DNA from: Methanolobus sp.
GTDB taxonomy: Archaea; Halobacteriota; Methanosarcinia; Methanosarcinales; Methanosarcinaceae
DNA: 51,912 bases
NCBI RefSeq assembly: GCF_030682845.1
Contig: NZ_JAUXNK010000066.1
Span: 1-51,912 of the forward strand
Direction: 5' to 3'
The translations under genes were made by a program, and so were the position numbers. This document shows, one piece after another, positions 5,531 to 47,154 of this stretch. The notes beneath the pieces are model-generated. The model was not told where the DNA came from. It ran no database searches and saw only the letters and a program-made list of their open reading frames with translations. The number at the start of each line of letters is the position of its first letter. Position 1 is the stretch's first letter.

Positions 5531-5710
5531 ATGATGGAAACTAAGAAAAAGATAAGCTATCCTGAAAGACTGCATGACATATTTATGCAGTTTGGATATT
5601 GCGGGAAATATGAGACTAAACCGATTGAAACGTTTATAGCGCTGCTGATAGATGAGATAATACAAGAGGTTAGAGAAGAATGCCAGAAGCGGAACTTGCA
5701 GAAAAAGTGA
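5531..5710 (+). CDS. Small hypothetical protein (59 aa)
   Basis: Begins M-M-E-T-K-K-K and is mostly helical. It overlaps the MCM-like gene by 31 bases in another frame, so the two may be translationally coupled. No family recognised. Confidence 0.45.
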   Translation: MMETKKKISYPERLHDIFMQFGYCGKYETKPIETFIALLIDEIIQEVREECQKRNLQKK

Positions 5711-6927: not shown

Positions 6928-6932
6928 GATTT

Positions 6933-7445: not shown

Positions 7446-7536
7446 AAATTTCTATTAATTCCCCACCATCTTTACAATATCGGCATTCCCACTCGCTATC
7501 AAGATGGACTGAATCGCAAACAACACAAAGTCTCAT
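7357..7536 (-). CDS. Small zinc-ribbon protein (59 aa), overlaps convergent gene
   Basis: Begins M-R-L-C-V-V-C-D, followed by ECRYC, a compact four-cysteine zinc ribbon. The start overlaps the stop of the gene upstream on the minus strand (TGATG), supporting translation. The C-terminal third lies antisense to the methyltransferase end, so the true 3' limit may be less meaningful than the N-terminal ribbon. Confidence 0.45.
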   Translation of the reverse strand: MRLCVVCDSVHLDSEWECRYCKDGGELIEIFSGKHGLLLLPQPPHLCVHILSCISSKIQ

Positions 7537-7826
7537 CACTTCACCTTCTCAAAAAACAACTTCAATCCCTGCACCATGGTACCAAGCTCCTTTATGCTTG
7601 CTTCAATTCCTGTTATCTTATTATTATACTCGATCAGGTAATCCGCAAATATCTCCGCAGCGTTAGTCCCTGTGAGCTTCCCAGGAGCTATGATCGCGGC
7701 TGCCCTCTCGATACGCTGATAGTCCTTAACGATGTCCAGCAGCACTTCGCCTGGTGGTCTGCCATCATTGTGTTTTTCCAGGTACTCTATGAGTTCGATG
7801 GGTATTTTGATGCTCTTGGTTTTCAC
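7536..7826 (-). CDS. RHH-like small regulator (96 aa)
   Basis: The start was chosen at GTG 7826 because AAGGTGAT lies just upstream and the preceding stop overlaps it. The N-terminus KTKSIKIPIELIEYLEKH is a beta strand plus helix typical of ribbon-helix-helix DNA-binding proteins, followed by a long helical C-terminus (SIKELGTMVQGLKLFFEK). It is probably a transcription regulator or plasmid-maintenance protein. Confidence 0.55.
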   Translation of the reverse strand: MKTKSIKIPIELIEYLEKHNDGRPPGEVLLDIVKDYQRIERAAAIIAPGKLTGTNAAEIFADYLIEYNNKITGIEASIKELGTMVQGLKLFFEKVK

Positions 7827-24950: not shown

Positions 24951-25616
24951 ATGCCAAAAATAGTAGAATATAGAAAAGAAGAGCTCTTGGCGGCGGAAGA
25001 TGAAATATTTGAAGGTGAGTGGGACAGGTTCGTAACCCGGCACTTCAAGCAGAGAGAAGTGATAGACATTTTCCAGGACAACAAGGAACAGATTAAAGAA
25101 GCATGCAGGATCGCAAAATACCAGCTCGAATCCCCATTCGGCGGCGCGAATGCAGGCACCAACGAATTCGGCTGGATGCCTATAATGCCGAACTTCATCC
25201 TTGCGACCGCTGCACCCACATACGCAACAGGAACATGGGTACAGTACCTGACAACCGCAAACGTATCAAGCAGGTGGATCAACTGGCTTGGGTCCAGCAG
25301 CTCAAAGATCAAACTGAGCAAGTATGCAACCATGATAATGATAGCCATTCACGAACCGGAAGAGGTATCAAAGGTTGCTGGGCTGGTCGCAAACATCAAA
25401 GGCAGAGATTACCCCATTTGGTACTTTGATGACGTGATGATGGAACAGGATTACAAGATATTTGAGTTACCTGACCCTATCGTAGTGGAGAAAGAACAGG
25501 AGTTCTACATCCGCCAGCTTGTCATGCGTGCAGGAAGATCACAGTTGCGACCCATTGGCGTGTACTTCGCCAAAGGCGACCACATGAGGGACGAGAGCGC
25601 ATACGCGAAGATTTAA
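24951..25616 (+). CDS. Candidate virion protein 1 (221 aa, beta-rich)
   Basis: TGAGGAGG lies 8 bases before the ATG, a strong site. After an N-terminal helical region (1-60), the sequence is beta-rich with aromatic strands (TGTWVQYLTTANVSSRWINW, YATMIMIAIHEP, PIWYFDD, EFYIRQLVMRAG). There are no enzyme motifs. It is followed by a similar-sized protein and five small paralogues. The layout of two adjacent beta-rich proteins of about 220 residues is that of viruses with two single-jelly-roll capsid proteins, but this is a hypothesis only. Confidence 0.5.
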   Translation: MPKIVEYRKEELLAAEDEIFEGEWDRFVTRHFKQREVIDIFQDNKEQIKEACRIAKYQLESPFGGANAGTNEFGWMPIMPNFILATAAPTYATGTWVQYLTTANVSSRWINWLGSSSSKIKLSKYATMIMIAIHEPEEVSKVAGLVANIKGRDYPIWYFDDVMMEQDYKIFELPDPIVVEKEQEFYIRQLVMRAGRSQLRPIGVYFAKGDHMRDESAYAKI

Positions 25617-25673: not shown

Positions 25674-26357
25674 ATGGATACAAACAGAATCGAAAGTAAA
25701 TTCCTCAAGGAAAACCAGCTTGTCGGATTGGGGTTTCCAATTCAGGGCTTTGTTTTCCTTCGCTGCACTGGCGTTGAAACGTTAATCTACCACGATTATG
25801 TTGAATCTCCCGCCAGCATTGCAGCAGATGCATTTGAAGATCAGGCGAGACTGCCGATAGCGGCGTACAACATAGACAACTTATTGAAGGTCGAAGATTG
25901 CGACCACGTTTACCAGGTGTTCATGGGATGGTCACCGGGCGCGGTCAGGCAGTACCTGTACTATCCCATGGAAACATCCCGGCGCAACCTCGATGTCAAG
26001 TCCATCTACCAGAAATCACCCTTCGGGTATGTGGAAGGGTTTGATTCAACGAAAGACCAGCCGGGACCTGACACTGAGCTATTCATCCCGAATGACGTGG
26101 ATGTGGCATTTGCATGGTGGAATCCACTGAGCACCGCGGAAACGGTTAGCATGAATATCCTGATCCGCAGGATGCAGGTTGATGTACTCAGGGATGCAGA
26201 CCTGATAGATCGGATACTGAAAGGACAGCAGCCGTGCAGGCTGGTATCACTCGGCGGGATTGAAAGCTCCTTTAACTACGATGCAATGGGAGTATTTGAT
26301 GTTGATTTCGTGAAACTCGGTGCAGCACGAGAGGAAATAGATAAAGCTGTGGCATAA
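25674..26357 (+). CDS. Candidate virion protein 2 (227 aa, beta-rich)
   Basis: Nearly the same size as the preceding gene and also beta-rich (GFPIQGFVFLRCTGVETLIYH, DVDVAFAWWNPLS, VSMNILIRRMQV), with no enzyme motif. A purine-rich GAAGGATGG precedes the ATG. Sequence similarity to the previous protein is not visible by eye. It is probably the second partner of a structural pair; alternatives are a spike base or a tail component. Confidence 0.5.
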   Translation: MDTNRIESKFLKENQLVGLGFPIQGFVFLRCTGVETLIYHDYVESPASIAADAFEDQARLPIAAYNIDNLLKVEDCDHVYQVFMGWSPGAVRQYLYYPMETSRRNLDVKSIYQKSPFGYVEGFDSTKDQPGPDTELFIPNDVDVAFAWWNPLSTAETVSMNILIRRMQVDVLRDADLIDRILKGQQPCRLVSLGGIESSFNYDAMGVFDVDFVKLGAAREEIDKAVA

Positions 26358-26368
26358 AGGAGGAAGAA

Positions 26369-26773
26369 ATGAAAGACATACGGAATATTGAACTTAAACT
26401 GGTAAATAAGATAGTTTCCAGCGGCGTGGCGAATGTAAATATCGGAGGGCAGGTACCATCGGGCATGAAACGCTGGGTAACTTTCATACAATTAGATACC
26501 CTTGCAATCACCGGAGCCTCAAATGTTGGCATATACCTTGCAAGCGTTGGAATAAGCAATCCCAGCATAGCAAGCACGGTGTTGTTAACCAACAGGAAAA
26601 TGCTGTTGATGCTAAGAGCGACACAGGCATCAGGATTCAGGAAGACGCCGTTACAGGTACCGAGAAAACCCAACATTAACTGTCCACTGTTCAGCATAGC
26701 GAGCGGCAAGTGGCTGGGCGCTGTTGCAACGACAACTACAGGAATGGTCACGATGCAATACTTTGACGAGTGA
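26369..26773 (+). CDS. Tandem paralogue family, copy 1 (134 aa)
   Basis: All five copies share NIGGQVPSGMKRWVTF near residue 28, a variable beta-rich middle, and PLFSIASGKWL then MQYFDE at the end. AAAGGAGG precedes this ATG. The variable middle between fixed ends looks like surface-exposed loops on a common scaffold. No family recognised. Confidence 0.65.
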   Translation: MKDIRNIELKLVNKIVSSGVANVNIGGQVPSGMKRWVTFIQLDTLAITGASNVGIYLASVGISNPSIASTVLLTNRKMLLMLRATQASGFRKTPLQVPRKPNINCPLFSIASGKWLGAVATTTTGMVTMQYFDE

Positions 26774-26782
26774 GGTGAGATC

Positions 26783-27190
26783 ATGAACATCGAACTTAAA
26801 ACAATAGATAAAATCGTAACAAGCAAAGTCTCAGCAATCAATATCGGAGGGCAGGTACCATCTGGTATGAAGCGCTGGGTAACTTTCCTGATGCTTGACA
26901 GCATACAACAGGCGGGCGCAAAATCCGTCAGGCTGCATCTTGCAAGTGTTGGAGTAAGCAACCCCACCAAGACAAGTATTGTAGCTACAACCCACAGGAA
27001 GATGCTGCTGGATTTGAGGGCATCAGGTTTGAAAGCATCAGAGAACATTACCCCCCACGGACCACCGCTCATGATACCTGACCAACCGGACTCGGACAAA
27101 CCGCTGTTCAGTATAGCGTCAGGCAAATGGCTGGGCGCATACTGCAGCAACACGACAGCCCTTGTGTTTATGCAATACTATGATGAGTGA
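26783..27190 (+). CDS. Tandem paralogue family, copy 2 (135 aa)
   Basis: The closest relative of copies 1 and 3, with the full GGQVPSGMKRWVTFL block and the SIASGKWLGAY block. Its unique middle contains GLKASENITPHGPPLMIPDQ. A GAGGTGAG ribosome site stands between the copies, so each is separately translated. Confidence 0.65.
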   Translation: MNIELKTIDKIVTSKVSAINIGGQVPSGMKRWVTFLMLDSIQQAGAKSVRLHLASVGVSNPTKTSIVATTHRKMLLDLRASGLKASENITPHGPPLMIPDQPDSDKPLFSIASGKWLGAYCSNTTALVFMQYYDE

Positions 27191-27199
27191 GGTGAGACA

Positions 27200-27613
27200 A
27201 TGAATATTAGAAATAGAGAACTGAAAACGATAGCTAAAGTAATTTCCAGCGGCGTGGCAAATTTAACTATCGGAGGACAGGTACCATCAAGCATAAAGCG
27301 CTGGGTAACTTTCCTGTTGATGGATTCGATCACTGTAAGCAGAGCGAGTGATATTGGGTTTTATTTCGCCAGCGTGGGGGTGAGCAACCCCACCATAGGA
27401 AGCACAGTACTGGCAGCCAACAGGAAGCTGTACATTCCAATCGAAGCGACTCAGTTGAACAATAAAAAGACCAATAAAAAACATCCGGTGATGATACCTG
27501 AGTCAGGACCAGACCCCGATAACCCGCTGTTCAGCATAGCGTCAGGCAAATGGCTGAGCGTAGTTGCCACAAAGACCACAGGGCATGTATTCATGCAGTA
27601 CTTTGACGAGTGA
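27200..27613 (+). CDS. Tandem paralogue family, copy 3 (137 aa)
   Basis: Shows VANLTIGGQVPSSIKRWVTF and PLFSIASGKWLSVVATKTTG. The variable middle has a basic loop (NNKKTNKKHPV). DNA identity with copies 1 and 2 is high at both ends and low in the middle, as expected for diversified surface proteins. It overlaps the next start. Confidence 0.65.
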   Translation: MNIRNRELKTIAKVISSGVANLTIGGQVPSSIKRWVTFLLMDSITVSRASDIGFYFASVGVSNPTIGSTVLAANRKLYIPIEATQLNNKKTNKKHPVMIPESGPDPDNPLFSIASGKWLSVVATKTTGHVFMQYFDE

Positions 27614-27999
27614 TGGCAATGGGAGTAAAGAACTACGACCTGAAAACAGTCACCAAGGTAATCAGCACCGTGAATACAGGTCTCAGCCTAGGTGCCGTAC
27701 CCACTGGCATGAAACGCTGGGTAACATTCGTGAGAGTAGACAACGTGTATGGAGGCGAGAATAAGTTGTTTTTGATAAGCAATACAACAGAGACAGCAGC
27801 TTCAACAATCACCCTTGCAAGTGCACGCGCGAAAGACAGGATCACACTGCAGGCGAAGGAGCACTTTGCAAACCCACCACAGGGTCCTGCCAGCCCGGAC
27901 TTCCCATTGTTCTTTATCGCGGCGGCAAAATACCTGACAGCAAAGACGAACAGGGGAAGCGTAAACCTATTCTTACAGTACTTCGATGGAGGCGATTAA
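27613..27999 (+). CDS. Tandem paralogue family, copy 4 (128 aa)
   Basis: Start set at ATG 27613, overlapping the preceding stop. More divergent: LGAVPTGMKRWVTF and FPLFFIAAAKYLTAKTNRG, ending FLQYFDGGD. It lacks the GGQ before the core motif and clusters with copy 5. Confidence 0.6.
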   Translation: MAMGVKNYDLKTVTKVISTVNTGLSLGAVPTGMKRWVTFVRVDNVYGGENKLFLISNTTETAASTITLASARAKDRITLQAKEHFANPPQGPASPDFPLFFIAAAKYLTAKTNRGSVNLFLQYFDGGD

Positions 28000-28000
28000 T

Positions 28001-28159
28001 ATGAATTGTCCTGATTGTGGAGAAGAACTCACAGCAGTAGGAGGAGTGCCAACAATATGGCAGTGCAATCGCTGCACGAAAGAAAACTCACTTAAACACG
28101 TAAAAAGCCCGGAAAAAAGGTTTACCGGGGATACGCTGGCGGCGTTCAGGAGGTTATGA
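28001..28159 (+). CDS. Small zinc-ribbon protein (52 aa)
   Basis: Begins M-N-C-P-D-C-G and has CNRC about 20 residues later, a complete zinc ribbon, then a basic tail. It lies between paralogue copies 4 and 5, starting one base after the stop of copy 4 and overlapping the start of copy 5. Confidence 0.55.
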   Translation: MNCPDCGEELTAVGGVPTIWQCNRCTKENSLKHVKSPEKRFTGDTLAAFRRL

Positions 28160-28509
28160 TGGTAGACAAAGACATTAAAACACTGAATAAGGTAATAACG
28201 TCAGTCCCAGCCAACCTCGGGCTCGGTGCGGTAGCCGCGGGCATGAAACGCTGGGTGACCTTCGTTAAAGTTACTGACGAGTTTGCGGGTGCAAATGCAA
28301 TATTTCTATGCAGCGGTACGACAGCCACCAATGCCGCCAGCGGGGTAGCCAAGGATAAACAGTACCTTGGAAACCAGTATGATGCTTTCGCTTACCCCGA
28401 CTCGCCAAGACCAGAGGCACCACTGTTCAGCATAGCAGCCAGCAAGTTCCTGACGGCATTTACGACAGCAGGCAACATGCATCTGTTCTTGCAGTACTTT
28501 GACGAGTGA
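28156..28509 (+). CDS. Tandem paralogue family, copy 5 (117 aa)
   Basis: Shows LGAVAAGMKRWVTFVKV, APLFSIAASKFLTAF and a final FLQYFDE. It is the shortest copy, with an Ala/Thr-rich middle (CSGTTATNAASG). An AGGAGG lies upstream of the ATG pair at 28156/28159. Confidence 0.62.
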   Translation: MMVDKDIKTLNKVITSVPANLGLGAVAAGMKRWVTFVKVTDEFAGANAIFLCSGTTATNAASGVAKDKQYLGNQYDAFAYPDSPRPEAPLFSIAASKFLTAFTTAGNMHLFLQYFDE

Positions 28510-28520
28510 AGGGGTACACC

Positions 28521-29159
28521 ATGCTTAAACCAGGCGGACCCATAGCGATAAAAGAGATAGAAGACGGGGCAGTAATAACCCAGAAGATAGCAGCATCAGC
28601 CGTAACTACCGCCAAGATTGACAGTGTTGCGGTAACAACAGCCAAGATAGCAGCATCAGCCGTAACTACTGCAAAGATCAATGCTACCGCAGTCACGGCA
28701 GCCAAGATTGGGACCAGTGCCGTAACAGCCACAAAGATAGCAGCATTAGCGGTAACAACAGCCAAGATAGCAGCCTCAGCAGTAACCACTGCTAAGATTG
28801 ACAGTGTTGCGGTAACAGCAGCCAAGATTGGGACCAGTGCCGTAACAGCAACTAAAATAGCAGCATCAGCAGTAACAGCCGTCAAGCTCAAAGCCAGTGC
28901 ATTAGATTATATTAAATATAAAGGACAAACCAGCAAAGTTCTTACTGCATCAGGTCATGCAAGCCTTGCTGCTGCGGGATTCATCCCAGAGGGAGTTATC
29001 GTAACTCCATGGACAGCCAGCCTTATATTCAGGCGCTGCAAAGCAAAACCAACAACAAGTATAGTAACTCTGGCGTTTGGACTTCTTAACACAAGCGGAA
29101 GAATACTTGCTACAAGCACTCGCACAGTAAGTTTCTACTTTGAGTATATGAGACCTTGA
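28521..29159 (+). CDS. Fibre-like protein with 10-residue AVTTAKI repeats (212 aa)
   Basis: Start at ATG 28521, 6 bases after AAGGGG. Residues about 15-125 are ten or so copies of a ten-residue unit (AASAVTTAKI, DSVAVTTAKI and so on), the pattern found in the shafts of phage tail fibres. The C-terminal 80 residues form a beta-rich head (VIVTPWTASLIFRRC, TVSFYFEYMRP). It is probably a trimeric fibre that contacts the host. It closes the block of candidate virion genes and is followed at once by the glycosylation cassette. Confidence 0.7.
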   Translation: MLKPGGPIAIKEIEDGAVITQKIAASAVTTAKIDSVAVTTAKIAASAVTTAKINATAVTAAKIGTSAVTATKIAALAVTTAKIAASAVTTAKIDSVAVTAAKIGTSAVTATKIAASAVTAVKLKASALDYIKYKGQTSKVLTASGHASLAAAGFIPEGVIVTPWTASLIFRRCKAKPTTSIVTLAFGLLNTSGRILATSTRTVSFYFEYMRP

Positions 29160-29197: not shown

Positions 29198-30055
29198 ATG
29201 CCATCAAAAGCCGAAATTCTCGGTCAGAACACAATGCAAGCCAAGCTGGGGCTGTGGGCTGCAAACCTAAGAGATAACCTGAACCTCATAAACCTGTGTG
29301 AAGACATAACATCTCTCCCTAAAATTAAGGGTCCTGCGCTCTGCCTGGCTGCCGGGTCGAGCTTGGAGCTGCACTATGACGAGATACCAATGTTTAAGGG
29401 TACGGTCTTATCCTGTGAGCGTAACCTGATTCCGCTACTGGAGAAGGGTATAATTCCAGATTATGTTATCAGCATAGACGGCAGTGAGGTCATGACCGGG
29501 TTCATAGACAGCCCACTCGTGGATGAGCATATTGACGAGATGATAGGTATATTCTCAACTACAGTAAGCCCGAAAATTTTAGAGAGGTGGCGGGGTGATA
29601 AAATTTTCTTCAATGCCTGGCTGGACGACATAAACGAGATAAAAAGCGTGAGCCTGGTCTTTCAGGAAATAACCAGAAAAGCAACCTGTCACACAGGAGG
29701 GCATTGTGGAAGTACATTATGGTATCTGTCTTATTATCTTAAAGCAAACCCGATAATTCTCATGGGTATAGATATGGCATACCCTGCAAGCATACCTGAT
29801 CTCAGCCACACCAGTATATGGGAGGGTATAAAGCACCTACACCGGGAAGAGATACTCGAATACTACCAGAGGGAAAAGAATCCCTTCGGCAACGAGGTCA
29901 TAACAGACTATGTCTGGGATGGCTTCAAGGACGCGTGGATGAGCTGGATCAGGGAGATGCAGGAGAGTGAAACCATACAATGCTCGGACTACACGATACT
30001 GCATGACCCGCCGCTTAAGGTGATGCCTTTTAAAGAATATTTGCAAAAACTATAA
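29198..30055 (+). CDS. Maf/DUF115-type putative glycosyltransferase 1
   Basis: Motility-associated-factor (Maf/DUF115, MptE-like fold) proteins transfer nonulosonic acids to flagellins or other proteins. Seen here: the nucleotide-binding-like LCLAAGSSLE, the IDGSE and IDSPLVDEH block, and the TGGHCGSTLWYLSYYL..ILMGIDMAY block that defines the family. It is 285 residues, a core domain without the flanking domains of bacterial Maf. It shares the FIDSPLVDEH block with the next gene. The acceptor is unknown; the fibre and paralogue genes upstream are natural candidates. Confidence 0.75.
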   Translation: MPSKAEILGQNTMQAKLGLWAANLRDNLNLINLCEDITSLPKIKGPALCLAAGSSLELHYDEIPMFKGTVLSCERNLIPLLEKGIIPDYVISIDGSEVMTGFIDSPLVDEHIDEMIGIFSTTVSPKILERWRGDKIFFNAWLDDINEIKSVSLVFQEITRKATCHTGGHCGSTLWYLSYYLKANPIILMGIDMAYPASIPDLSHTSIWEGIKHLHREEILEYYQREKNPFGNEVITDYVWDGFKDAWMSWIREMQESETIQCSDYTILHDPPLKVMPFKEYLQKL

Positions 30056-30082
30056 GTATAAGTACGGATAATTCCGTATAAT

Positions 30083-31210
30083 ATGGATAAAGAGGAATCC
30101 AAAAATAAACGTAAAAGGTATTTACCTTGGATAGAGCAGGAATATTGGGAAGCTTTTAACGCCGTCAGGAAAAAACATAATCTTGGTTGGAACGATGTTT
30201 TTAAACGATTCTCGCTTTACCAGAACGGTATCGAGTATATCTTTTCCGCCCCAGGAGAGATGAGCAAGCAGTTAAGGTTAGACCTTAACACAATCATGGG
30301 TCTAATGAGTAAGTGGCTCACGAATATCAAAGACAACTGGTATCTTATTGATAAAAACTCGGATATAAGTGAAATCCATGACGCCTATAAAGGAAAGAAA
30401 GCACTTGTTATCGGTGCAGGACCGAGCCTGAAGGAAAGAAAACATCTTCAGGTACTGCGCGGGTTGAACCATCGAGCAGATGTTGAAGACATGGTTATCT
30501 TCAGCACACTGCACAGCCTGAAAGAGTGCCTTGAGGAGGGAATAGTCCCGCAGTTCACAGGGGTCGTGGATGCAAGCGAACTGATGGTAAATTTCATCGA
30601 CAGCCCACTCGTGGATGAACACGCGGATGAAATGACACTGGTATGCTGTGCAAGCACGCACCCGGAAGTCTTTAAAAAGTGGAAGGGTAAAAAAATATTC
30701 TTTTTCAGGTCGGGAATCCCGCAGAACATATTACCCAACACAGATACTTTCCTGAGCATTCTACTGCCAAAACTCACAGAAATAGAAACTGGAGGGAATA
30801 GCAGCTCAAGCATGTATAGTATTGCCAGCTTTCTGGGCTGCAATCCTATAGGTATGATCGGGACGGATTTCGGTTATCTTAAAGGGTTTCCTTATGACCA
30901 GACGATGTATTATCATGCCTATGCACAGAGTATAGGGGTAGGCGGCAAGGATGGGTACAAAGACGTGCAGGATATGATCAGCAAATGTTACGAGGATTTC
31001 CACCACCCGGATTTCAAGACCGATGCGTATTTCGATTTTGTCTATTCTGTGTTCAGAAATTCATTATTTGAAATGGTTAAATCCAATAAAAAGCAGAACC
31101 CAGAGCACAGACTGATAAATGCAACCGAAGGCGGGACGATATACACAGAGGATGGCAGTATTGAGTGCATGACGCTGCAGGAGTTCCTGGATGGATTCCG
31201 CTATACTTAA
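30083..31210 (+). CDS. Maf/DUF115-type putative glycosyltransferase 2
   Basis: Has the full family set: ALVIGAGPSLKERK, the VDASELMVNFIDSPLVDEH block and TGGNSSSSMYSIASFLGCNP followed by MIGTDFGY. An extra N-terminal helical region (1-95) distinguishes it from copy 1. Its 3' end overlaps the aminotransferase gene by 20 bases, tying it to the sugar pathway. Two non-identical transferases suggest two acceptors or two steps. Confidence 0.78.
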   Translation: MDKEESKNKRKRYLPWIEQEYWEAFNAVRKKHNLGWNDVFKRFSLYQNGIEYIFSAPGEMSKQLRLDLNTIMGLMSKWLTNIKDNWYLIDKNSDISEIHDAYKGKKALVIGAGPSLKERKHLQVLRGLNHRADVEDMVIFSTLHSLKECLEEGIVPQFTGVVDASELMVNFIDSPLVDEHADEMTLVCCASTHPEVFKKWKGKKIFFFRSGIPQNILPNTDTFLSILLPKLTEIETGGNSSSSMYSIASFLGCNPIGMIGTDFGYLKGFPYDQTMYYHAYAQSIGVGGKDGYKDVQDMISKCYEDFHHPDFKTDAYFDFVYSVFRNSLFEMVKSNKKQNPEHRLINATEGGTIYTEDGSIECMTLQEFLDGFRYT

Positions 31211-32318
31211 AATTCCCTTCCTCATGCCTCCGTTAGGTGATGAGGAGATAGAAGCCGCATCTAGGGTTATGAGGACGAAATACCTCACAGGCGGCGGCGA
31301 GGCAGACCTGTTCGAGAAGGAATTTGCTGAGTATATCGGCACGGAAAGCGCAATCTCTACAAATTCAGGAACGTCAGCACTTGAACTGGTTTTGCACGCA
31401 TATAAGTGCATGGGTGCCCTGAGACCAGGGGATAAGGTCTTGATACCATCATTTACTTTTGTTGCGGTGGCAAACGCTGTTGTGAACGCAGGCATGGAGC
31501 CGGTATTTGCAGATATAACCCCACAAACGATGAACATAAAACTCCCGAATAATATCGAGGATATAAAAGCAGCGATTATAGTTCACACATTCGGCACGCC
31601 ATGCGACACGTCTATAATTCGCTACCTGCAATCAAAAGGGGTTATAGTCATAGAGGACTGCGCTGAAGCCATGGGTGCGCGATGGTGGGGAAGCCAGAAG
31701 AAGGTTGGCAGCCGCGGGGACTGCGGCATATTCAGTTTTGCAGCCACAAAAATAATGACAACCGGTGACGGTGGGATGATAACCACAAACGCCACGAGTT
31801 TAACTGAGTATATTAAACTTCTAAGAGTACATGGTTTATCTTCAAAAATAAATAGCGATGAGCGAAGCGCAATACTTCCGGGACATAACTACAGGATGTG
31901 CAACATACTGGCTGCGATAGGCAGGGTGCAATTATCCAAAGCAGATGAGTTCTGTAAAGCGCGCAGGAAACATGCACAGAAATTGAATGAATTGATCACC
32001 ATGGAGCAAATACCAGTACTCACACCATGGGATTTTCATTATAGCGTTTATCAGATTTATACAATACAATTAAAAGAAGGAGACAGTACCACAAGGGCAG
32101 CGGTATTAAAAGCTCTCAGAGAGCGCGGGATTGAAGCTAAAGTGTATTTTTATCCTCCGATACACCAACAGGCTTATTACAGCTCTAAATACGGCGATAT
32201 TGGGTTAAAATGTACTGACCGGATATCCGAGAGGGTTATATCGCTGCCTATGTACCCTTCGCTGGAAGAGGAGGAAATTGAGTATATGGTGCAGTGTCTC
32301 AAGGAGGTGCTCTGCTGA
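31191..32318 (+). CDS. DegT/DnrJ-type sugar aminotransferase
   Basis: A PLP enzyme that aminates a keto-sugar nucleotide. The PLP-lysine is K187 in SFAATKIMTTGDGGM, and D156 sits in VIVIEDCAEAMGA; STNSGTSALEL binds the phosphate. It matches PseC/LegC-type enzymes in length (375 aa). The start overlaps the glycosyltransferase gene, and an alternative ATG exists at 31224. Its substrate would be the keto product of the SDR gene downstream. Confidence 0.87.
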   Translation: MDSAILKIPFLMPPLGDEEIEAASRVMRTKYLTGGGEADLFEKEFAEYIGTESAISTNSGTSALELVLHAYKCMGALRPGDKVLIPSFTFVAVANAVVNAGMEPVFADITPQTMNIKLPNNIEDIKAAIIVHTFGTPCDTSIIRYLQSKGVIVIEDCAEAMGARWWGSQKKVGSRGDCGIFSFAATKIMTTGDGGMITTNATSLTEYIKLLRVHGLSSKINSDERSAILPGHNYRMCNILAAIGRVQLSKADEFCKARRKHAQKLNELITMEQIPVLTPWDFHYSVYQIYTIQLKEGDSTTRAAVLKALRERGIEAKVYFYPPIHQQAYYSSKYGDIGLKCTDRISERVISLPMYPSLEEEEIEYMVQCLKEVLC

Positions 32319-33031
32319 TGGTATTCATAGCGGCTGAGATTGGGGTTAATTTCCGTAACCTAACTGAAGCGCGGCGCATGATAGGTCTGGCTAAGAATGC
32401 AGGCGCAGATACAGTAAAATTTCAAATATATTCTCAGGAGCATGTGAAAGGGCATCCAAGACAACGGGAGCTTGAGGAGATTATCTTAACTCCTGAGAAG
32501 ATAAAATACCTGAAACAGGCAGCCGATGACTGCGGCATTGAGTTTTTTGCCACACCATATTTTCCAGAGGCTGTGGATTGGCTTGAGCAAGTTGGCGTTA
32601 AGCGATACAAAATACGCTATGTAGATAGATATAATAGTAATTTAATAAACACAATACTTAAAACAAACAAACAAGTCTTATTATCATGTGATTGTGATTA
32701 TTTAGATGACATAATACATAATCATAAAATATTCAATCCAGGTACGATAGATTATATCTATTGCGTACCAGAATACCCCCCACCACTTGAAAAAATCTTA
32801 TTCCCATATGATTTTGGAGATAGTTTATACACAGGTTATAGCAACCACTACCCATCAATAGTCCCTCCATTAGTGGCTGCTGCGCGAGGTTGTGAGTATT
32901 TGGAAACTCACGTTAAACAAGATAAATATCATAATGGCTACAAGCCGATAGACGATGCGGTATCAATCACATTCTCACAGCTTACTGAATTATACAGGCT
33001 GGTAAGGGAGATTGAAAAGATAGAATGGTGA
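32318..33031 (+). CDS. NeuB/LegI-type nonulosonic acid synthase, no SAF domain
   Basis: Condenses phosphoenolpyruvate with an amino sugar to make a sialic-acid-like nonulosonic acid. The start is ATG 32318 (AAGGAGG 10 bases upstream, overlapping the previous stop). The NeuB barrel is recognisable: AAEIGVNFRN, GADTVKFQIYS, EFFATPYFPEAVDWL, YTGYSNHYPSIVPPLVAA and ETHVK. At 237 residues it ends with the barrel; the usual C-terminal antifreeze-like SAF domain (about 100 residues) is missing. Some motif residues are altered (KIRYVDRY where KIGSGD is usual), so activity or substrate may differ. Confidence 0.82.
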   Translation: MVFIAAEIGVNFRNLTEARRMIGLAKNAGADTVKFQIYSQEHVKGHPRQRELEEIILTPEKIKYLKQAADDCGIEFFATPYFPEAVDWLEQVGVKRYKIRYVDRYNSNLINTILKTNKQVLLSCDCDYLDDIIHNHKIFNPGTIDYIYCVPEYPPPLEKILFPYDFGDSLYTGYSNHYPSIVPPLVAAARGCEYLETHVKQDKYHNGYKPIDDAVSITFSQLTELYRLVREIEKIEW

Positions 33032-33035
33032 TTTT

Positions 33036-33299
33036 ATGATAAAATATATACCGATAGAAACCGAATTAAAGTTGCCACACTATCTGGAGCAAGATAAGTG
33101 GATAGGTAAAAAAGTCAGAATAAAGAAACACTTTATAAAAGATACTATTTTAAGAAGAAGCACAACCGCAATAATAAGAAAAATTATTTTTAATAGGGAT
33201 GGAACGTGGTTTGCTATTAAAGTACAATACGCAGACGGCACAGAATGGAACGAATCGCCTGAAGAGTTTAAATTAAAGGTGGTCTCTTTAATACAGTGA
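33036..33299 (+). CDS. Hypothetical beta-rich protein (87 aa) in sugar cluster
   Basis: A basic, beta-rich protein (GKKVRIKKHFIKD, WFAIKVQYADGTEW) with an SH3/KOW-like look. It sits exactly where a SAF domain would follow NeuB, but I see no SAF motif, so its role is unknown. It starts 4 bases after the synthase stop. Confidence 0.5.
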   Translation: MIKYIPIETELKLPHYLEQDKWIGKKVRIKKHFIKDTILRRSTTAIIRKIIFNRDGTWFAIKVQYADGTEWNESPEEFKLKVVSLIQ

Positions 33300-33303
33300 T
33301 TTT

Positions 33304-34113
33304 ATGGCAACGATATTAATAACAGGCGCAGGTGGATCTCTCGGCTCTGTGCTGACCAGAAGGTTTGTGGTAGAAGGATATAAGGTCAGGGCACTGGACA
33401 TTCACGAACCGTCCCTATCAAAGCTTAAAAATGAAAATGTAAGGCTGCTGCTTGGCGATATAAAAGACGAATCGCGTATGAACTTTGCACTGGAGGGGTG
33501 TGATTCCTGTATAGCCTGTGCGTCGTATAAAAATTTAGACCTTACCGAGTATTCTTTAGAGGATACGTATAAAACCAATGTACTCGGCACGCTTAAAACA
33601 GCAAAAGCCTGTCATAACCAGAAAGTTAAGAATGCCGTGTTGATAAGCTCGGATAAAGCAGTAGAGCCAACATCAATATACGGTGTAACCAAACTTGCCC
33701 AGGAACATATCTGGCTCTGGATGGCAAGGGTACAGATGGTTACTGAATTTATAATTATACGAATGGGTAATATAGAATGGTCGTCTGGTTCTGTGCTGCC
33801 TATCTGGAAAGAACAGGTAGAACGCGGCGAAAAGATAACAGTTACACATCCCCAATGTGAAAGGTATTTTATTTCAGATGGGAGCGCCTCGGATTTTGTG
33901 CTGAATGTGACTCAAACAGGCATCAACGGTAAGATATACATTCCGAAGATGACTAGAAAAAGAATACGCGACATGGCGCTTGAGTTCGTGAGTAATGACG
34001 CTGACAAGATCGTCATCACCGGGTTGAGGCATGGGGAGAAAATAATGGAGAGGCTATATTCACAGGAAGAGGCTCCGAAAGTTAAGGATAGGGGAAATTA
34101 TTATGAGATATGA
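33304..34113 (+). CDS. SDR-family sugar-nucleotide 4,6-dehydratase/epimerase
   Basis: The NAD motif GAGGSLG (8-14) and catalytic Y126/K130 (SIYGVTK) follow ISSDKAVEP, the CapD/PseB-type signature; the C-terminal GLRHGEKIMERLYS matches the same group. Such enzymes turn UDP-N-acetylglucosamine into a keto-sugar for the aminotransferase. It is shorter (269 aa) than PseB (about 330). Its 3' end overlaps the remnant of the CMP-sugar synthetase start. Confidence 0.82.
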   Translation: MATILITGAGGSLGSVLTRRFVVEGYKVRALDIHEPSLSKLKNENVRLLLGDIKDESRMNFALEGCDSCIACASYKNLDLTEYSLEDTYKTNVLGTLKTAKACHNQKVKNAVLISSDKAVEPTSIYGVTKLAQEHIWLWMARVQMVTEFIIIRMGNIEWSSGSVLPIWKEQVERGEKITVTHPQCERYFISDGSASDFVLNVTQTGINGKIYIPKMTRKRIRDMALEFVSNDADKIVITGLRHGEKIMERLYSQEEAPKVKDRGNYYEI

Positions 34114-34159
34114 GTTCGATGATGTACTTGCGATAATCCCGGCGCGGATGGTGGAATGA
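34103..34159 (+). pseudogene. Severed N-terminus of a CMP-sugar synthetase gene
   Basis: An 18-codon frame, M-R-Y-E-F-D-D-V-L-A-I-I-P-A-R-M-V-E then stop. The core LAIIPAR is the start motif of CMP-nonulosonate synthetases and matches the IVIVPAR of the intact gene beyond the endonuclease. It begins in overlap with the dehydratase stop, as the gene would have in the uninterrupted operon, and its stop overlaps the endonuclease ATG. Confidence 0.72.
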
Positions 34160-35043
34160 ATAAAATAAATACTTGGGTACAAAACGAACAGCAAAAACAA
34201 CACAATTGTTTTTGTGGATGTGGAGGGGAGATTAAAATTCAACGTAGATATTATTGGATAGGAATACCACGATTTATTAGTGGACACAATACAAAGGTCG
34301 CAAATCCTATGGATAATTCTGAGGTTAGAGAGAAAGTCAGTGAGGCTAATAAAGGTGAAAAAAATCCAATGTATGGACGAAAAAGTCCAATGTATGGTGT
34401 TCATAGATATGGTAAAAAGGCACCTTTTTATCAAAAACACCATACACAAGCATCAAAAAAAAGGATGAGTGAAGCTCATAAAGGCTTACAATCAAAAGAA
34501 AGGCATCCTATGTGGGGGAAAAGAGGTAAGGACAATCCACTATTCGGTAAGCCTTTAACAGACGAGCACAGGAAAAAAATTTCTGATGCATTAAAAGGCA
34601 GACCATTAACAGAAGAACATAGAAGGAAGGTAAGTATAGCTATGAGTGGGGAAAAACATCCTATGTATGGTAAACACCTTACAGAAGAGACAAGGAAAAA
34701 ACTAAGTGAATGTAAAAAGGGAGAAAAACATCCTTTATTTGGTAAGTGTGGTGAGATAGCACCAAATTGGCATGGGGGAAAATCATTTGAACCATATTGT
34801 CCAAAATTTAACCACGAATTAAAAGAAAAAATCCGCGAGAGGGATAATAGAACCTGTCAGTTATGCTGTGTAAAAGAAAATGGGAGGAAATTAGATGTTC
34901 ATCACATTCACTACGACAAACCTAACTGTAACCCAGATTTGATAGCATTGTGTTTTAAATGTAATACAAAAGTGAATTTTAACAGAGATTATTATGAAAA
35001 TCTGTTTATGGAGAAATTAACACAAAGGGGTTTGATTATTTAA
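34156..35043 (+). CDS. HNH homing endonuclease with NUMOD3 repeats
   Basis: Residues about 60-205 contain five or six NUMOD3 units (GEKNPMYGR, KDNPLFGKPLTDEHRKKIS, EKHPMYGKHLTEETRKKLS), which bind DNA. The C-terminus is an HNH nuclease (CQLCCVKENGRKLDVHHIHY, then CFKCN). The N-terminus has CFCGCGG. The gene is AT-rich compared with its neighbours, a sign of transfer. It sits precisely at the IPAR codons of the CMP-sugar synthetase gene, so it appears to be a selfish free-standing homing gene. Confidence 0.9.
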   Translation: MNKINTWVQNEQQKQHNCFCGCGGEIKIQRRYYWIGIPRFISGHNTKVANPMDNSEVREKVSEANKGEKNPMYGRKSPMYGVHRYGKKAPFYQKHHTQASKKRMSEAHKGLQSKERHPMWGKRGKDNPLFGKPLTDEHRKKISDALKGRPLTEEHRRKVSIAMSGEKHPMYGKHLTEETRKKLSECKKGEKHPLFGKCGEIAPNWHGGKSFEPYCPKFNHELKEKIRERDNRTCQLCCVKENGRKLDVHHIHYDKPNCNPDLIALCFKCNTKVNFNRDYYENLFMEKLTQRGLII

Positions 35044-35660
35044 TGGATACTGACATCATAGTAATAGTTCCGGCTCGAAGGGATTCGAAGAGGTTACCAC
35101 ATAAAAATAAAATGTTATTACACGGTGTGCCGCTATGGGAAAACTCAGTTAATATAGCAAAAAAGGCTGGGATAAAAAATATAATCGTATCTACTAACGA
35201 TGAGGAGATATTATCCACAAAAGTTGAAGGGGTGATGATGCTGGAGCGTTCAAAACAGAACGCTACTGATGAAGCAACAACAACAGATGTTATTTATGAG
35301 GTAATTCAATTTATAGAAGCTACTGGGATAAAGTATAAAACAATCGCCCTGCTGCAGCCCACATCACCATTATTAGAGCCGCATACATTGAGACATGCAC
35401 TACACCAGTTCCAGGATAAATCAATGCGGTGCCTGATAGCGTATAACCAACAGTATAAGCCGTGCGGCGCATTTTACATTTTCAGGTATTCAGAGTTTGC
35501 ATTCTACGGCAATTCTATCTATGGAATAGATAACTCACATATCTATATCCTGCCGCCGGAGCAGGCGATAGATGTGGATGAACTGTGGGATTGGAGGGCG
35601 GCGCAGGATGTTAAGGCAGGACGCGTGATCAACCCTGAGAGTTTTACTCGTGGTTTATGA
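35043..35660 (+). CDS. CMP-nonulosonate (NeuA-type) cytidylyltransferase
   Basis: Activates the nonulosonic acid with CTP for transfer. It starts IVIVPARRDSKRLPHKNK, the CTP-binding motif, and has LLQPTSPLLEPHTLR. It is 205 residues, near the family's usual 220-230. The ATG overlaps the endonuclease stop (TAATG), so its start was rebuilt after the insertion. All core residues are present, so it is probably active. Confidence 0.85.
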   Translation: MDTDIIVIVPARRDSKRLPHKNKMLLHGVPLWENSVNIAKKAGIKNIIVSTNDEEILSTKVEGVMMLERSKQNATDEATTTDVIYEVIQFIEATGIKYKTIALLQPTSPLLEPHTLRHALHQFQDKSMRCLIAYNQQYKPCGAFYIFRYSEFAFYGNSIYGIDNSHIYILPPEQAIDVDELWDWRAAQDVKAGRVINPESFTRGL

Positions 35661-37023
35661 CTCGGAAATGTACATCCACTGGTTTCCACAGGGTCTGGCG
35701 TACATAGCCGCCGCGCTTCTAAAAGAAGGGCACGATGTTGAAATATACAACCAGGATGCAAACCATTACCCTGACGAGCACCTGACAGCATATCTTGACC
35801 AGAATAAATTCGATATTATAGGTGTTGGAATCATAGCGGGGTATTACCAGTACAGGAAACTAATAAAAATCTCTGACGCGATCAATAAATCCAGGAACAG
35901 ACCTTTTTATATCCTTGGTGGGCACGGTCCTTCTCCTGAACCTGGGTTTTTCCTCAAGAAAATGCGGGCTGATGCTGTAGTTATCGGGGAAGGCGAGATA
36001 ACAATAGTTGAGCTACTATCAGCAATATACAACCTCAGACCGCTTGACAGCGTTAAGGGCATAGCATTCCGTTCAGGGGATAATGTAAAGATTAACGAGA
36101 GGAGACCTTTAATAAAAGATGTGGATTCCATCCCAGTTCCTGCATACCATCTGTTCCCGATTGATTATTACAGGCTGCTCAGGATGCCCCACTGCTCAAA
36201 CTCAGATTTTGTGATGCCGGTGTTATCAGGTAGGGGTTGCCCGTTTAAATGTATATTTTGTTACCGGATGGATAAAGGTTTTAGACCGAGAAGTAATGAA
36301 AAAATCATTAATGAAATTCAACTTTTGAAACACATGTACGGCATTACGTATATTGCATTCTCGGATGAACTCTTGATGTCATCAGCAGAAAGAACTATCA
36401 GCTTATGTGAAGACTTTATCAAGGCTAAATTAAATATAAAATGGTGCTGCAACGGCAGGTTAAACTTTGCCGAGCCTGAAGTCCTGAGCCTGATGAAGCA
36501 GGCTGGCTGCGTATTCATTAACTACGGCATTGAAGCCATGGATGATGCTGTTTTGAAGAACATGAATAAAGTATTGACCACGGAGCAAATCCTGCGCGGC
36601 ATTGAAGCCACACTGGATGCAGGGATCAGTCCGGGCTTTAACATCATATTCGGGAACATCGGCGATAATAGAGAGACCTTAAGAAAAGGTGTGGAATTCT
36701 TATTAAAATATGATGACGGCGCCCAGATGCGTACCATCCGTCCGGTGACGCCGTATCCAGGGTCGCCTCTTTATTATTATGCAATAGAGAAGGGGCTGCT
36801 TAAAGACTGTGAGGACTTTTACGAGAACAAACACATAAATTCAGACCTGCTTGCTGTAAATTTCACGGATTTAAGCGATGATGAATTCCATAAATGTTTG
36901 ATGGAAGCTAACATAGAGCTGCTTTCTAATTATTCTCAGAAAAAGTTATCTGTCCTACTCAGGCAAACCAAAAAACTATATTTAGAAAAAGATACAAGTT
37001 TCAGGGGGTTTCGGCAATCATGA
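35650..37023 (+). CDS. B12-binding-domain radical SAM enzyme
   Basis: Radical SAM cluster C197-x3-C201-x2-C204 (GRGCPFKCIFCYRMD), preceded by a B12-binding-like Rossmann domain (1-130; GVGIIAGYYQ, ILGGHGPSPEPG, VIGEGE). Such enzymes methylate or rearrange unactivated carbons. The frame is open upstream and would encode L-R-V-L-L-V-V from a CTG at 35635, the usual first strand, so the true start may be there rather than GTG 35650. Inside a nonulosonate cluster it may modify the sugar or its carrier, an uncommon addition. Confidence 0.83.
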   Translation: MVYDSEMYIHWFPQGLAYIAAALLKEGHDVEIYNQDANHYPDEHLTAYLDQNKFDIIGVGIIAGYYQYRKLIKISDAINKSRNRPFYILGGHGPSPEPGFFLKKMRADAVVIGEGEITIVELLSAIYNLRPLDSVKGIAFRSGDNVKINERRPLIKDVDSIPVPAYHLFPIDYYRLLRMPHCSNSDFVMPVLSGRGCPFKCIFCYRMDKGFRPRSNEKIINEIQLLKHMYGITYIAFSDELLMSSAERTISLCEDFIKAKLNIKWCCNGRLNFAEPEVLSLMKQAGCVFINYGIEAMDDAVLKNMNKVLTTEQILRGIEATLDAGISPGFNIIFGNIGDNRETLRKGVEFLLKYDDGAQMRTIRPVTPYPGSPLYYYAIEKGLLKDCEDFYENKHINSDLLAVNFTDLSDDEFHKCLMEANIELLSNYSQKKLSVLLRQTKKLYLEKDTSFRGFRQS

Positions 37024-37940
37024 AAATTTTAATTCCTGTTGGCTGCCGGAGTGATGAAGGCTTATCCGTGCCTGTGAGGAAGCGACTTGGTAATAGCGGG
37101 TATGCTTTAAAGTTACAATACCATGATTTTTATAACGCGTATTGTGAAGTTGAAAAATTCATTTTGGAATTTAAACCCGATCTCGCGCTGCTTTTTGGCG
37201 ACAGGATAGAGATGTGCGGCGCGGCGGCAGCGTGTTTCCATAACAATATCCCAATAGCCCACGTATATGCAGGTACGGGGAATAACACGGCAACGCTCGA
37301 TGACATTTCCAGGCATGTTATAACTCTGTGGTCAGATATACAATTCTGCGAGAGCGACAGCGCGGCTAAAAGAGTAGAAAATCTTCTAACAGCAATAGGT
37401 AAAAAGCCTAACTGGTATGTTGTCGGCATCACGCATTTAGACGATGTTGCGATCTCTGAGAAGTACGTCCCGAAAGAGCCATACGACCTCGTGTTGTATA
37501 ACCCCATAACTGCATATAGCAAATTGAAAAATATAAATATAATGGCAGGAGAGCTCAACGAGATAAAAGAGCTAATCAAGAACTCCGAACTGGTTTATTT
37601 TATCGGTTCTAACCCCGACCCTGGAGCTTATTTCATCAACAATTATTCTGAGGAACTAAAATTAAAAATCATTGCTGACAGCGCATATCTCCCAAACCTT
37701 GAGAGACCTGAATTTTTAGGTCTGCTCAAGAACTGCAGCAGGTTTATCGGGAACAGTTCCTCATTGATATATGAGGCTCCTTTTTTTCTCTCATCTCAAC
37801 AAATTATCAGTATTGGGATGAGGAATAGAGATAGGGATAAGGGACCGTTTATGACTGATGCAAGTGACAGGATCGTGGAGGTAATTAAACAATGGTACAC
37901 AGCGAAGAATGGAAGCAAAACTGGAAAAAGCCCGAAATAA
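37020..37940 (+). CDS. UDP-N-acetylglucosamine 2-epimerase (NeuC/LegG-like)
   Basis: Hydrolysing 2-epimerases release the free amino sugar used by NeuB. Seen: LALLFGDRIEMCGAAAACF and IPIAHVYAGTG, then RFIGNSSSLIYEAPFF. It is 306 residues rather than about 370, mainly through shorter linkers. The ATG overlaps the preceding stop by four bases. The pairing with NeuB and an aminotransferase points to a legionaminic- or bacillosamine-type route. Confidence 0.82.
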   Translation: MKILIPVGCRSDEGLSVPVRKRLGNSGYALKLQYHDFYNAYCEVEKFILEFKPDLALLFGDRIEMCGAAAACFHNNIPIAHVYAGTGNNTATLDDISRHVITLWSDIQFCESDSAAKRVENLLTAIGKKPNWYVVGITHLDDVAISEKYVPKEPYDLVLYNPITAYSKLKNINIMAGELNEIKELIKNSELVYFIGSNPDPGAYFINNYSEELKLKIIADSAYLPNLERPEFLGLLKNCSRFIGNSSSLIYEAPFFLSSQQIISIGMRNRDRDKGPFMTDASDRIVEVIKQWYTAKNGSKTGKSPK

Positions 37941-38296
37941 AGCACAATATACCCACAAAATGGAATTGGATAGTAGCACACCCCGATCATCTAAACTTGG
38001 GTAAGTATGTAGATATTGGTGCGTTCACCTATATTAATGCGAAATACATAGTCACTATAGATGATGACGTACAGATAGGTTCACACGTAGCGATATACAC
38101 CGAGAACACGATAGACGACACCTGGGGTCATGTGTATCTTGAAAAGGGATGCTGCATAGGTTCGCACAGCATCATTTTACCCGGAGTTATAGTGGGGTAT
38201 AAAGCGAAAGTTGGTGCGTTCAGCCTCGTTAAGAAGGACATACCCGCAAACAGCACCGCCTACGGTATCCCTATGAAGGTCGTCAAAAAGTTTTAG
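37892..38296 (+). CDS. Left-handed beta-helix acetyltransferase
   Basis: Hexapeptide repeats (VDIGAFTYINAK, VQIGSHVAIYT, CCIGSHSIILPGVIVG, AKVGAFSLVKKDIPAN) form a left-handed beta-helix, ending in the family's PMKVVKKF tail. Such enzymes N-acetylate amino sugars (PglD/NeuD/LegH type). The start lies inside the 3' end of the epimerase, overlapping by 49 bases. It is the last gene of the sugar cassette. Confidence 0.8.
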   Translation: MVHSEEWKQNWKKPEIKHNIPTKWNWIVAHPDHLNLGKYVDIGAFTYINAKYIVTIDDDVQIGSHVAIYTENTIDDTWGHVYLEKGCCIGSHSIILPGVIVGYKAKVGAFSLVKKDIPANSTAYGIPMKVVKKF

Positions 38297-46332: not shown

Positions 46333-47154
46333 CTAATCAATTACAATTAAATCAAGGGGGCTTTTTATTTTCTTAATTTCTTTGGATGAAACCTGTGTGT
46401 ATATCTGGGTGCTATTCAGGTTTGAATGACCCAGTAACACTTGTATCTTCCTTATATCAACACCATTTTCGAGGAGATGAGTAGCGAAAGAATGTCTGAG
46501 TGTATGAACATGAACCTTTTTCTTAATACCTGCACGAAACGTAGCCTTTTTCACTATATCCTGTATACCTCTTGTAGACATTTTCTCACCTCTTCCTGAA
46601 AAAACATAACCATCAGGTTCAATCATTCTTTTTCCAATATACTTCTTTAGAGATTTATTGAAGCGATCTGAAATTATAAACTGCCTATCTTTGCCGCCTT
46701 TTCCATTACGCACCCAGCCTATATTTTCATTTAAATCTATATCTGAGTATTTCAAATTAATACATTCTGAGAGTCGCAACCCTGTGGAATAAAGCAATTC
46801 TATGATTAGCCTGTGTTTTGGGTTTTTAGTATTATCGATTAATCTTTTGACCTCACCCATAGTCAATACAACAGGTAATTTTTTATTGGGTTTGGGTGCT
46901 CTAATAACTATATTATTTCCAAGAACATCGCGATAGAAAAACACAAGGGCATTCATTATAAGAGATAATGAACCGCTGGATAATTTAGTAGACCTGAGCA
47001 TAAGATAATTTTTTATATCCGCTTCGCTTACTTTTTCTGATGGTTTCTTTATATATTCAAGAAATGTTTTGTTATAGAAGAGATACATTTTTAATGTCTG
47101 CTCTGAATAACATCTTATCTTCAATTCCTTTTCAAGTTTGTCTAAATTATCCAT
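46333..47154 (-). CDS. XerA/XerC-like tyrosine recombinase (integrase)
   Basis: A full archaeal XerA-type enzyme (273 aa) with the complete catalytic set: R127 (STGLRLSE), K152 or K155 (GKGGKDRQ), H217 and R220 (HVHTLRHSFATHL), H243 (LLGHSNLNS) and Y252 (IYTQV). The N-terminal 90 residues are the usual SAM-like core-binding domain. It could resolve dimers or integrate the element. The divergent promoter region behind it carries inverted repeats. Confidence 0.88.
   Translation of the reverse strand: MDNLDKLEKELKIRCYSEQTLKMYLFYNKTFLEYIKKPSEKVSEADIKNYLMLRSTKLSSGSLSLIMNALVFFYRDVLGNNIVIRAPKPNKKLPVVLTMGEVKRLIDNTKNPKHRLIIELLYSTGLRLSECINLKYSDIDLNENIGWVRNGKGGKDRQFIISDRFNKSLKKYIGKRMIEPDGYVFSGRGEKMSTRGIQDIVKKATFRAGIKKKVHVHTLRHSFATHLLENGVDIRKIQVLLGHSNLNSTQIYTQVSSKEIKKIKSPLDLIVID

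Follow-up and report, generated by a model that had tools for sequence, protein, structure and literature searches.

A candidate nonulosonic-acid synthesis and attachment module on a virus-like element of Methanolobus

Can a mobile element of an archaeon make a sialic-acid-like sugar and attach it to its own proteins? The question is raised by a gene cluster on contig C46 (NZ_JAUXNK010000066.1) of a Methanolobus sp. assembly of 2.87 Mb and 99.8% completeness. The window analysed here is that entire contig, 51,912 bp in length, and the cluster at positions 29198-38296 combines two Maf-type transferase genes with genes of the nonulosonic acid (NulO) pathway. On balance we think it probable that this locus belongs to archaeal virus-like elements as a transferable module for making and attaching a sugar, one that would produce a variant NulO and use it in the cytoplasmic O-glycosylation of virion proteins.

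The sugar cluster and its gene families

All genes of the cluster are on the plus strand, every reading frame is open, and intergenic spacing ranges from -49 to +42 bp. This arrangement is consistent with a single transcription unit, as the sequence-only reading of this DNA had supposed. The cluster also includes a radical S-adenosylmethionine (SAM) enzyme and a short-chain dehydrogenase/reductase (SDR); its genes are as follows.

29198..30055, +, DUF115/Maf-type transferase a, 285 aa (PF01973, E value 3e-24; NCBIfam FlagModPseD, E value 1.6e-6), without the HAHGDN motif
30083..31210, +, DUF115/Maf-type transferase b, 375 aa (PF01973, E value 6e-29; PseD domain, E value 2.4e-7)
31191..32318, +, DegT/DnrJ pyridoxal-phosphate aminotransferase, PseC/LegC-like (PF01041, E value 1.5e-99; PseC best at 267 bits, LegC 210 bits)
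32318..33031, +, NeuB-type synthase, 237 aa, SAF-less, with KIRxxDR replacing KIxSGE (Pfam NeuB, E value 1.2e-31)
33036..33299, +, open reading frame (ORF) of 87 aa, zero NCBIfam matches
33304..34113, +, PseB/CapD-type nucleotide-diphosphate N-acetylhexosamine 4,6-dehydratase (SDR), 269 aa (PF02719, Polysacc_synt_2, E value 2.4e-66)
34156..35043, +, NUMOD3/HNH homing endonuclease inserted within the cluster (PF07460, E value 5e-32, 5 stretches)
35043..35660, +, short CMP-nonulosonate synthetase, 205 aa (PseF best, E value 2.6e-26; CTP_transf_3, E value 7e-15)
35650..37023, +, B12-binding radical SAM enzyme (PF04055, E value 1.4e-22; PF02310, E value 3e-17)
37020..37940, +, NeuC-type protein of a variant clade, 306 aa (Epimerase_2, E value 1.9e-30)
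37892..38296, +, hexapeptide acetyltransferase, NeuD/LegH-like (NeuD, E value 1e-16; Hexapep, 6e-8)

The sequence-only reading had named eight of these genes, and all eight are present at the coordinates given above with matches far above chance (Pfam E values 6e-8 to 1.5e-99); the B12-binding radical SAM enzyme, the homing endonuclease and the 87-aa ORF were missing from its list. Pfam and NCBIfam thus place six pathway families in one cluster, namely a 4,6-dehydratase, a 4-aminotransferase, an acetyltransferase, a NeuC-type epimerase, a NeuB-type synthase and a CMP-synthetase. As that reading had expected, the profile matches are to NulO families rather than to unrelated ones, although the assignments hold at the family level only, because the NCBIfam scores all fall below the equivalog cut-offs. 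The families support a NulO pathway coupled to Maf-type (PseD-like) transferases. For the dehydratase, the nearest solved structure is the UDP-GlcNAc C6 dehydratase 2gn4 (E value 4e-38), with which the residues of the (S/T)DKA and YxxxK motifs align. When the Methanolobus genome was searched, no NeuB was found besides the one on the window contig, and no other CMP-NulO synthetase scored above the cut-off; the single other cytidylyltransferase match was weak and fell below it.

At the domain level both DUF115 proteins match PseD, the model for flagellin modification, far under its cut-off of 670 bits, and a DUF115 protein of M. psychrotolerans does likewise. No transmembrane segments were seen in either window protein, and single-protein scans of IMG/VR and INPHARED yielded no close viral relatives of transferase b.

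Divergent enzymes shared by unrelated elements

The sequence-only reading held that exactly this set of genes makes CMP-legionaminic or CMP-pseudaminic acid in bacteria. As worded, this is not supported for the window: judged by alignment, it departs from the standard set in NeuB, NeuC and the CMP-synthetase, which are divergent, and since these are without conserved acceptor-site or catalytic residues, neither product is proven. The window NeuB has 237 aa and ends before the SAF domain, while 30 of 31 homologues sampled from archaeal genomes have 332-389 aa and the remaining one 280 aa. In an alignment that included 30 of these homologues, the Ser of the SGE motif is replaced by Tyr and the Glu by Asp. 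The residues that contact phosphoenolpyruvate (PEP) and metal (E25, K53, K129, Y186, S213, H215, H236 and D247 in N. meningitidis numbering) are kept in the window and in the viral contig L091 described below, with one conservative change each in contigs L092 (E to D) and L113 (D to E). In NeuC, whose nearest solved relative is the diacetylbacillosamine hydrolysing 2-epimerase 5xvs, both conserved Asp residues are retained, and the conserved Glu and His are replaced by Thr and Asn, substitutions that are common to its clade. These four positions (Asp, Glu, Asp, His) we take to be the catalytic residues of SiaA/WecB-type hydrolysing 2-epimerases. Cellular homologues of the CMP-synthetase (205 aa), of NeuC (306 aa) and of the SDR (269 aa) are likewise longer than these window proteins.

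A search with a profile of the element NeuB proteins led to a contig of a second archaeal metagenome-assembled genome (G040:C161, here L113), from the same taxonomic order as Methanolobus, in which the gene arrangement recurs. Its upstream part encodes a weak relative of the window's 221-aa protein, three copies of the paralogues that precede the Maf genes in the window, four DUF115 proteins, an N-acetyl-sugar amidotransferase and a homing-endonuclease-like gene. These are followed by the B12-binding radical SAM enzyme, NeuB, SDR, short CMP-synthetase, NeuC, acetyltransferase and aminotransferase. A repeat-rich gene lies farther along. Identities to the window are 41% for the B12 radical SAM enzyme, 32% for NeuB, 54% for the SDR, 40% for the CMP-synthetase, 37% for NeuC and 51% for the acetyltransferase. 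Transferase b is 33% identical to one L113 DUF115 protein, and three of the four L113 copies match PseD. The L113 NeuB is likewise SAF-less and its CMP-synthetase has the same internal gap. The L113 amidotransferase scores 318 bits as a member of the WbuX family, for which the cut-off is 203. Since this family includes PseA of the flagellin-linked pseudaminic acid pathways, its presence strengthens the pathway assignment. A search for the gene order in other archaeal elements was a check that the sequence-only reading had proposed, and because paralogues, Maf genes and sugar genes keep their order in L113, we regard them as one module. The L113 contig would be a second candidate element, its mobility itself being only presumed.

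Scans of IMG/VR with the window NeuC recovered four further contigs, L091, L092, L093 and L094. The NeuC of L093 is identical to that of L094 over their overlap, so that the distinct viruses number at least three (L091, L092 and L094). Terminase, SPP1-type portal and HK97-type capsid genes are all present in L091, which places it among the Caudoviricetes. Its cassette sits between terminase and portal and comprises a SAF-less NeuB, a PseB-type SDR, a class-III aminotransferase, a small SDR, NeuC, an acetyltransferase and a CMP-synthetase. The same gene set is carried by L092, where an SPP1-type portal follows the cassette, and by L094. An extra DegT aminotransferase in L092 is 41% identical to that of the window, and the window acetyltransferase is 50-54% identical to copies in L041, L092, L094 and L113. 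Beyond the sugar genes and an HNH domain, nothing in common was detectable between L091-L094 and the window. The closest named relatives of the L091 capsid include Caudoviricetes sp. vir515, a virus of a Methanosarcinales host (42% identity), in which no sugar cassette is annotated in the part viewed; the L091 portal resembles those of Firmicutes phages. The class-III aminotransferase, which is glutamate-1-semialdehyde-aminomutase-like, and the small SDR (L091 7739-9750, L092 7455-9301, L094 7396-9636) suggest a second tailoring branch in the tailed viruses.

In phylogenetic trees the element NeuB proteins form a clade with 100/100 support, separate from the sampled cellular archaeal homologues, and the element NeuC proteins form one with equal support, which contains one cellular archaeal sequence. 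The latter is an orphan NeuC at 6646-7539 of a contig from an archaeal metagenome-assembled genome (G358:C85, L090), with no NulO cluster around it. The residue changes of NeuB and NeuC recur across the clade in alignments. The CMP-synthetases form no single clade; the window enzyme, for which a single-protein scan of IMG/VR gave no close viral relatives, pairs with that of L113, and those of the tailed viruses group separately.

A host-type counterpart is found in the same genus. M. psychrotolerans YSF-03 has a NulO cluster with full-length NeuB, NeuC and CMP-synthetase, and there a DUF115 gene adjoins a B12 radical SAM gene, so the same partnership occurs in a host-type locus. This NulO/surface-glycan cluster, on contig C84 (L034/L035), has two NeuB genes.

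Neighbouring genes and the nature of the contig

Directly upstream of the cluster lie the genes that the sequence-only reading had taken for virion genes.

24951..25616, +, 221-aa candidate virion protein, no family match, weak relative in the L113 contig
25674..26357, +, 227-aa candidate virion protein, zero Pfam or PHROG matches
26369..28509, +, five paralogous proteins of 117-137 aa, grouped by alignment, predicted beta-sandwiches
28506..29159, +, fibre-type protein with "TAKIxxxAVT" repeats, Ser/Thr-rich (S+T 0.23), PHROG tail-fibre matches on the repeats

Some of these genes have relatives in other virus-like contigs; no virion gene was assigned by family search. The relative of the 221-aa protein, upstream of the paralogues at the end of the L113 contig (L114), shares 23% identity (tblastn, E value 0.001). 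The fold model of the 227-aa protein is unusable (pLDDT 33), and single-protein scans of IMG/VR gave no close viral relatives of either protein. One paralogue was modelled, with moderate confidence (pLDDT 70), as an all-beta fold. In Foldseek and VIA-align its matches to viral jelly rolls, phage cement proteins, Ena pili and nucleoplasmins come out on a par (Z below 8), and we claim nothing more specific than a predicted small beta-sandwich. Relatives of the paralogues occur in IMG/VR contig L044 and, directly ahead of the Maf genes, in L113. A paralogue profile run against 393 genomes of the phylum found the window only, in a sample that is not exhaustive, the L113 genome, which carries them, not having been drawn. 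Contig L044 also has an RFC-like gene (L097 3250-3954, IMG/VR 3300032046_004636), 44% identical to window 2584-3270, and probably represents a related element family. No significant similarity was found between the repeat fibre or a 547-aa protein of the window and similarly placed L113 genes. As candidate acceptors of the sugar we favour the five paralogues or the adjoining Ser/Thr-rich repeat fibre, and synteny favours the paralogues over the Ig/PEGA proteins.

The mobile-element setting that had been proposed for the cluster is borne out by further genes on the contig.

2584-3270, RFC-like protein
5680..6927, +, MCM-type helicase, for replication of a mobile element (PF00493, E value 1.8e-19)
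19392..20570, -, Cdc6/Orc1 initiator (Cdc6_lid, E value 3e-23; Cdc6_C, E value 1e-16)
46333..47154, -, tyrosine recombinase/integrase (PF00589, E value 5e-48)

Also encoded are a RadC-like protein, an intein-bearing subtilase, a UbiA prenyltransferase, ParA and a divergent PCNA, and the RFC-like protein is an ATPase. Because MCM, Cdc6, RFC, PCNA, ParA and integrase genes are all on the contig, it looks like a virus or plasmid rather than a chromosomal island. That it is a virus seems likely, on the ground that neighbouring genes are homologous to those of other virus-like contigs and not through a recognised capsid or terminase. In IMG/VR a single-protein scan gave no close viral relatives of the MCM. 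Both contig ends (1-451 and 51088-51912) fall within different repeat beta-propeller/adhesin-type genes on the plus strand, where the assembly probably broke. As both ends stop inside such genes, a circular element interrupted in repeats is possible; a comparison of the termini found no overlap. No tRNA genes were found on the contig and an Rfam search of the window gave zero matches, while scans for sigma-70 promoters and terminators returned counts not above those of shuffled sequence.

Two features of the contig lie apart from the cluster. The subtilase (16480-19050, minus strand) has an intein inside it that bears NUMOD3 and DUF559/Vsr-like endonuclease domains. At 14430-16291, also on the minus strand, are two adjoining polytopic membrane proteins, of which one is clearly the UbiA prenyltransferase and one has no Pfam match; they are an odd cargo for a mobile element and perhaps lipid-related.

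Proposed pathway, alternatives and known systems

By family membership, the PseB-type dehydratase, the PseC/LegC-type aminotransferase and the acetyltransferase would turn NDP-GlcNAc into an N-acylated 4-amino-4,6-dideoxy sugar, which the NeuC-type protein may release or re-shape. The SAF-less NeuB, its acceptor-site chemistry altered, would join this sugar to PEP, giving a nine-carbon keto sugar that the short CMP-transferase would activate, and the B12 radical SAM enzyme would probably methylate or otherwise tailor the sugar. The two DUF115/Maf-type proteins would then carry out O-glycosylation in the cytoplasm, the site of virion assembly, the acceptors being the five paralogues or the adjacent repeat fibre. 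Bacterial Maf acts in the cytoplasm on unexported flagellin, a mode of action that suits a virion whose proteins come together within the cell. On the virion, the sugar might serve in surface disguise or adhesion. More tentatively, methanogen viruses may use a virus-specific NulO branch, in which the altered NeuB and NeuC take an acceptor unlike the 2-epimerised, manno-configured sugar and so yield an undescribed nine-carbon acidic sugar, placed by Maf-type enzymes on capsid-decorating proteins in the cytoplasm.

Several observations weigh against a make-and-attach module of this kind. The C-terminal SAF/antifreeze domain is missing from NeuB, and in N. meningitidis NeuB the SAF-domain residue Arg314 is required for activity, R314A being inactive (PMC6795526). 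With its conserved Glu and His gone, a canonical hydrolysing 2-epimerase activity of NeuC is doubtful, and the CMP-synthetase is missing an internal segment of roughly 35 residues that is present in cellular enzymes. No DUF115 gene occurs on the sequence of L091-L094 examined, which consists of fragments, so that the synthesis of the sugar does not in every case go with Maf attachment. Among the window ORFs that were scanned, no terminase, portal or capsid was recognised by Pfam or PHROG, small ORFs and the 227-aa protein being without assignment, and the extrachromosomal state of the contig is unproven.

Of the alternatives, the one that fares best, though we think it a good deal less probable, is modification of the host surface by lysogenic conversion, the sugar decorating the host S-layer, archaellin or pili so as to alter adhesion or exclude viruses, with the virion not the target. 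It would fit a Methanolobus genome without a NeuB of its own, when relatives such as M. psychrotolerans have NulO clusters with DUF115 and B12 radical SAM genes; it would also fit the nature of the Maf target in bacteria, which is flagellin, and the products of two adjacent genes, of which one has a PEGA domain and the other a signal-like N-terminus. Yet the module adjoins candidate virion genes in a paralogue-Maf order that is kept in L113, the L091 cassette stands among structural genes, and the cassette contains no recognisable archaellin-like gene.

Slightly less probable still is that host glycosyltransferases add the sugar to archaeal N-glycans and that the DUF115 proteins do something else. 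The N-glycan of the HRPV-1 virion ends in 5-N-formyl-legionaminic acid (PMC6137143), and the tailed viruses, whose examined sequence has the cassette without DUF115, agree with such a route. However, DUF115 genes are clustered with the pathway in both archaeal contigs, two in the window and four in L113. Moreover, the paralogues have 0-2 NxS/T sites each and, by a simple hydropathy scan, an N-terminus that is not strongly hydrophobic, and are therefore not expected to meet the extracellular N-glycosylation machinery.

We consider it improbable that the cassette is decaying cargo, the truncated and inactive relics of a host NulO cluster split by a homing endonuclease. Several enzymes do fall short of cellular homologues in length, some otherwise conserved catalytic residues are gone and an HNH gene is inserted, but every frame is open and the same truncations and substitutions recur in four independent elements that differ by about half. 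That element proteins of only 40-50% identity share these changes speaks for selection of a variant function and against decay. That the DUF115 proteins are MptE-type 6-hydroxymethylpterin pyrophosphokinases unconnected to the sugar genes, as the inclusion of archaeal MptE in PF01973 and the MptE name of that family might suggest, is rejected as very improbable, because the DLDGD and HAHGDN motifs of the host MptE, which is encoded elsewhere (C60) and has no PseD match, are missing from both window proteins, and PseD is matched by this pair and by three of the four L113 copies.

The proposed module can be set beside several known systems. Of the legionaminic, bacillosamine-derived CMP-nonulosonate pathway (LegB-C-H-G-I-F) of Campylobacter and Halorubrum sp. 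PV6, the window has all six activities by family, and chromosomal versions exist in related archaea. The window differs in that its NeuB is without SAF and SGE, NeuC is without the conserved Glu and His, the dehydratase is of the PseB rather than the LegB type, the CMP-synthetase is compact, and the set is borne by a mobile element together with a B12 radical SAM enzyme. With the Maf/PseD flagellin glycosyltransferases the window pair has in common the DUF115 domain, a PseD model match and linkage to NulO genes, a linkage seen in L113 as well; in contrast, the window proteins are short (285 and 375 aa against 640 PseD model positions) and lie beside virion-like paralogues, not flagellin. Among viruses, the marine AG-345-L05 (Kyanoviridae) bears a NeuB-type gene next to aminotransferase and SDR genes, but its NeuB falls outside the element clade and keeps an STG motif, and there is no variant NeuC in the stretch read. 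That stretch (L105, MH319754.1 78476-97189) is a large glycan-synthesis island, with the NeuB-type gene near psbA-like and haem-oxygenase-like genes.

Archaeal virions are already known to bear a sialic-acid-like sugar. In the case studied, HRPV-1, the NulO is on the virus particle itself; there the sugar is made by the host and the pathway is not virus-encoded (PMC6137143). In the window, by contrast, it is the element that carries the pathway and candidate transferases, in a host with no other NeuB, and the rebuilt active sites are common to otherwise unrelated elements. The PMC open-access literature searched, an incomplete collection, yielded no description of a NulO pathway encoded by an archaeal virus. 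If the proposal is true, it would tie flagellin-type O-glycosylation to virus particles and point the way to a new sugar, and what glycans do on archaeal virions would become directly testable.

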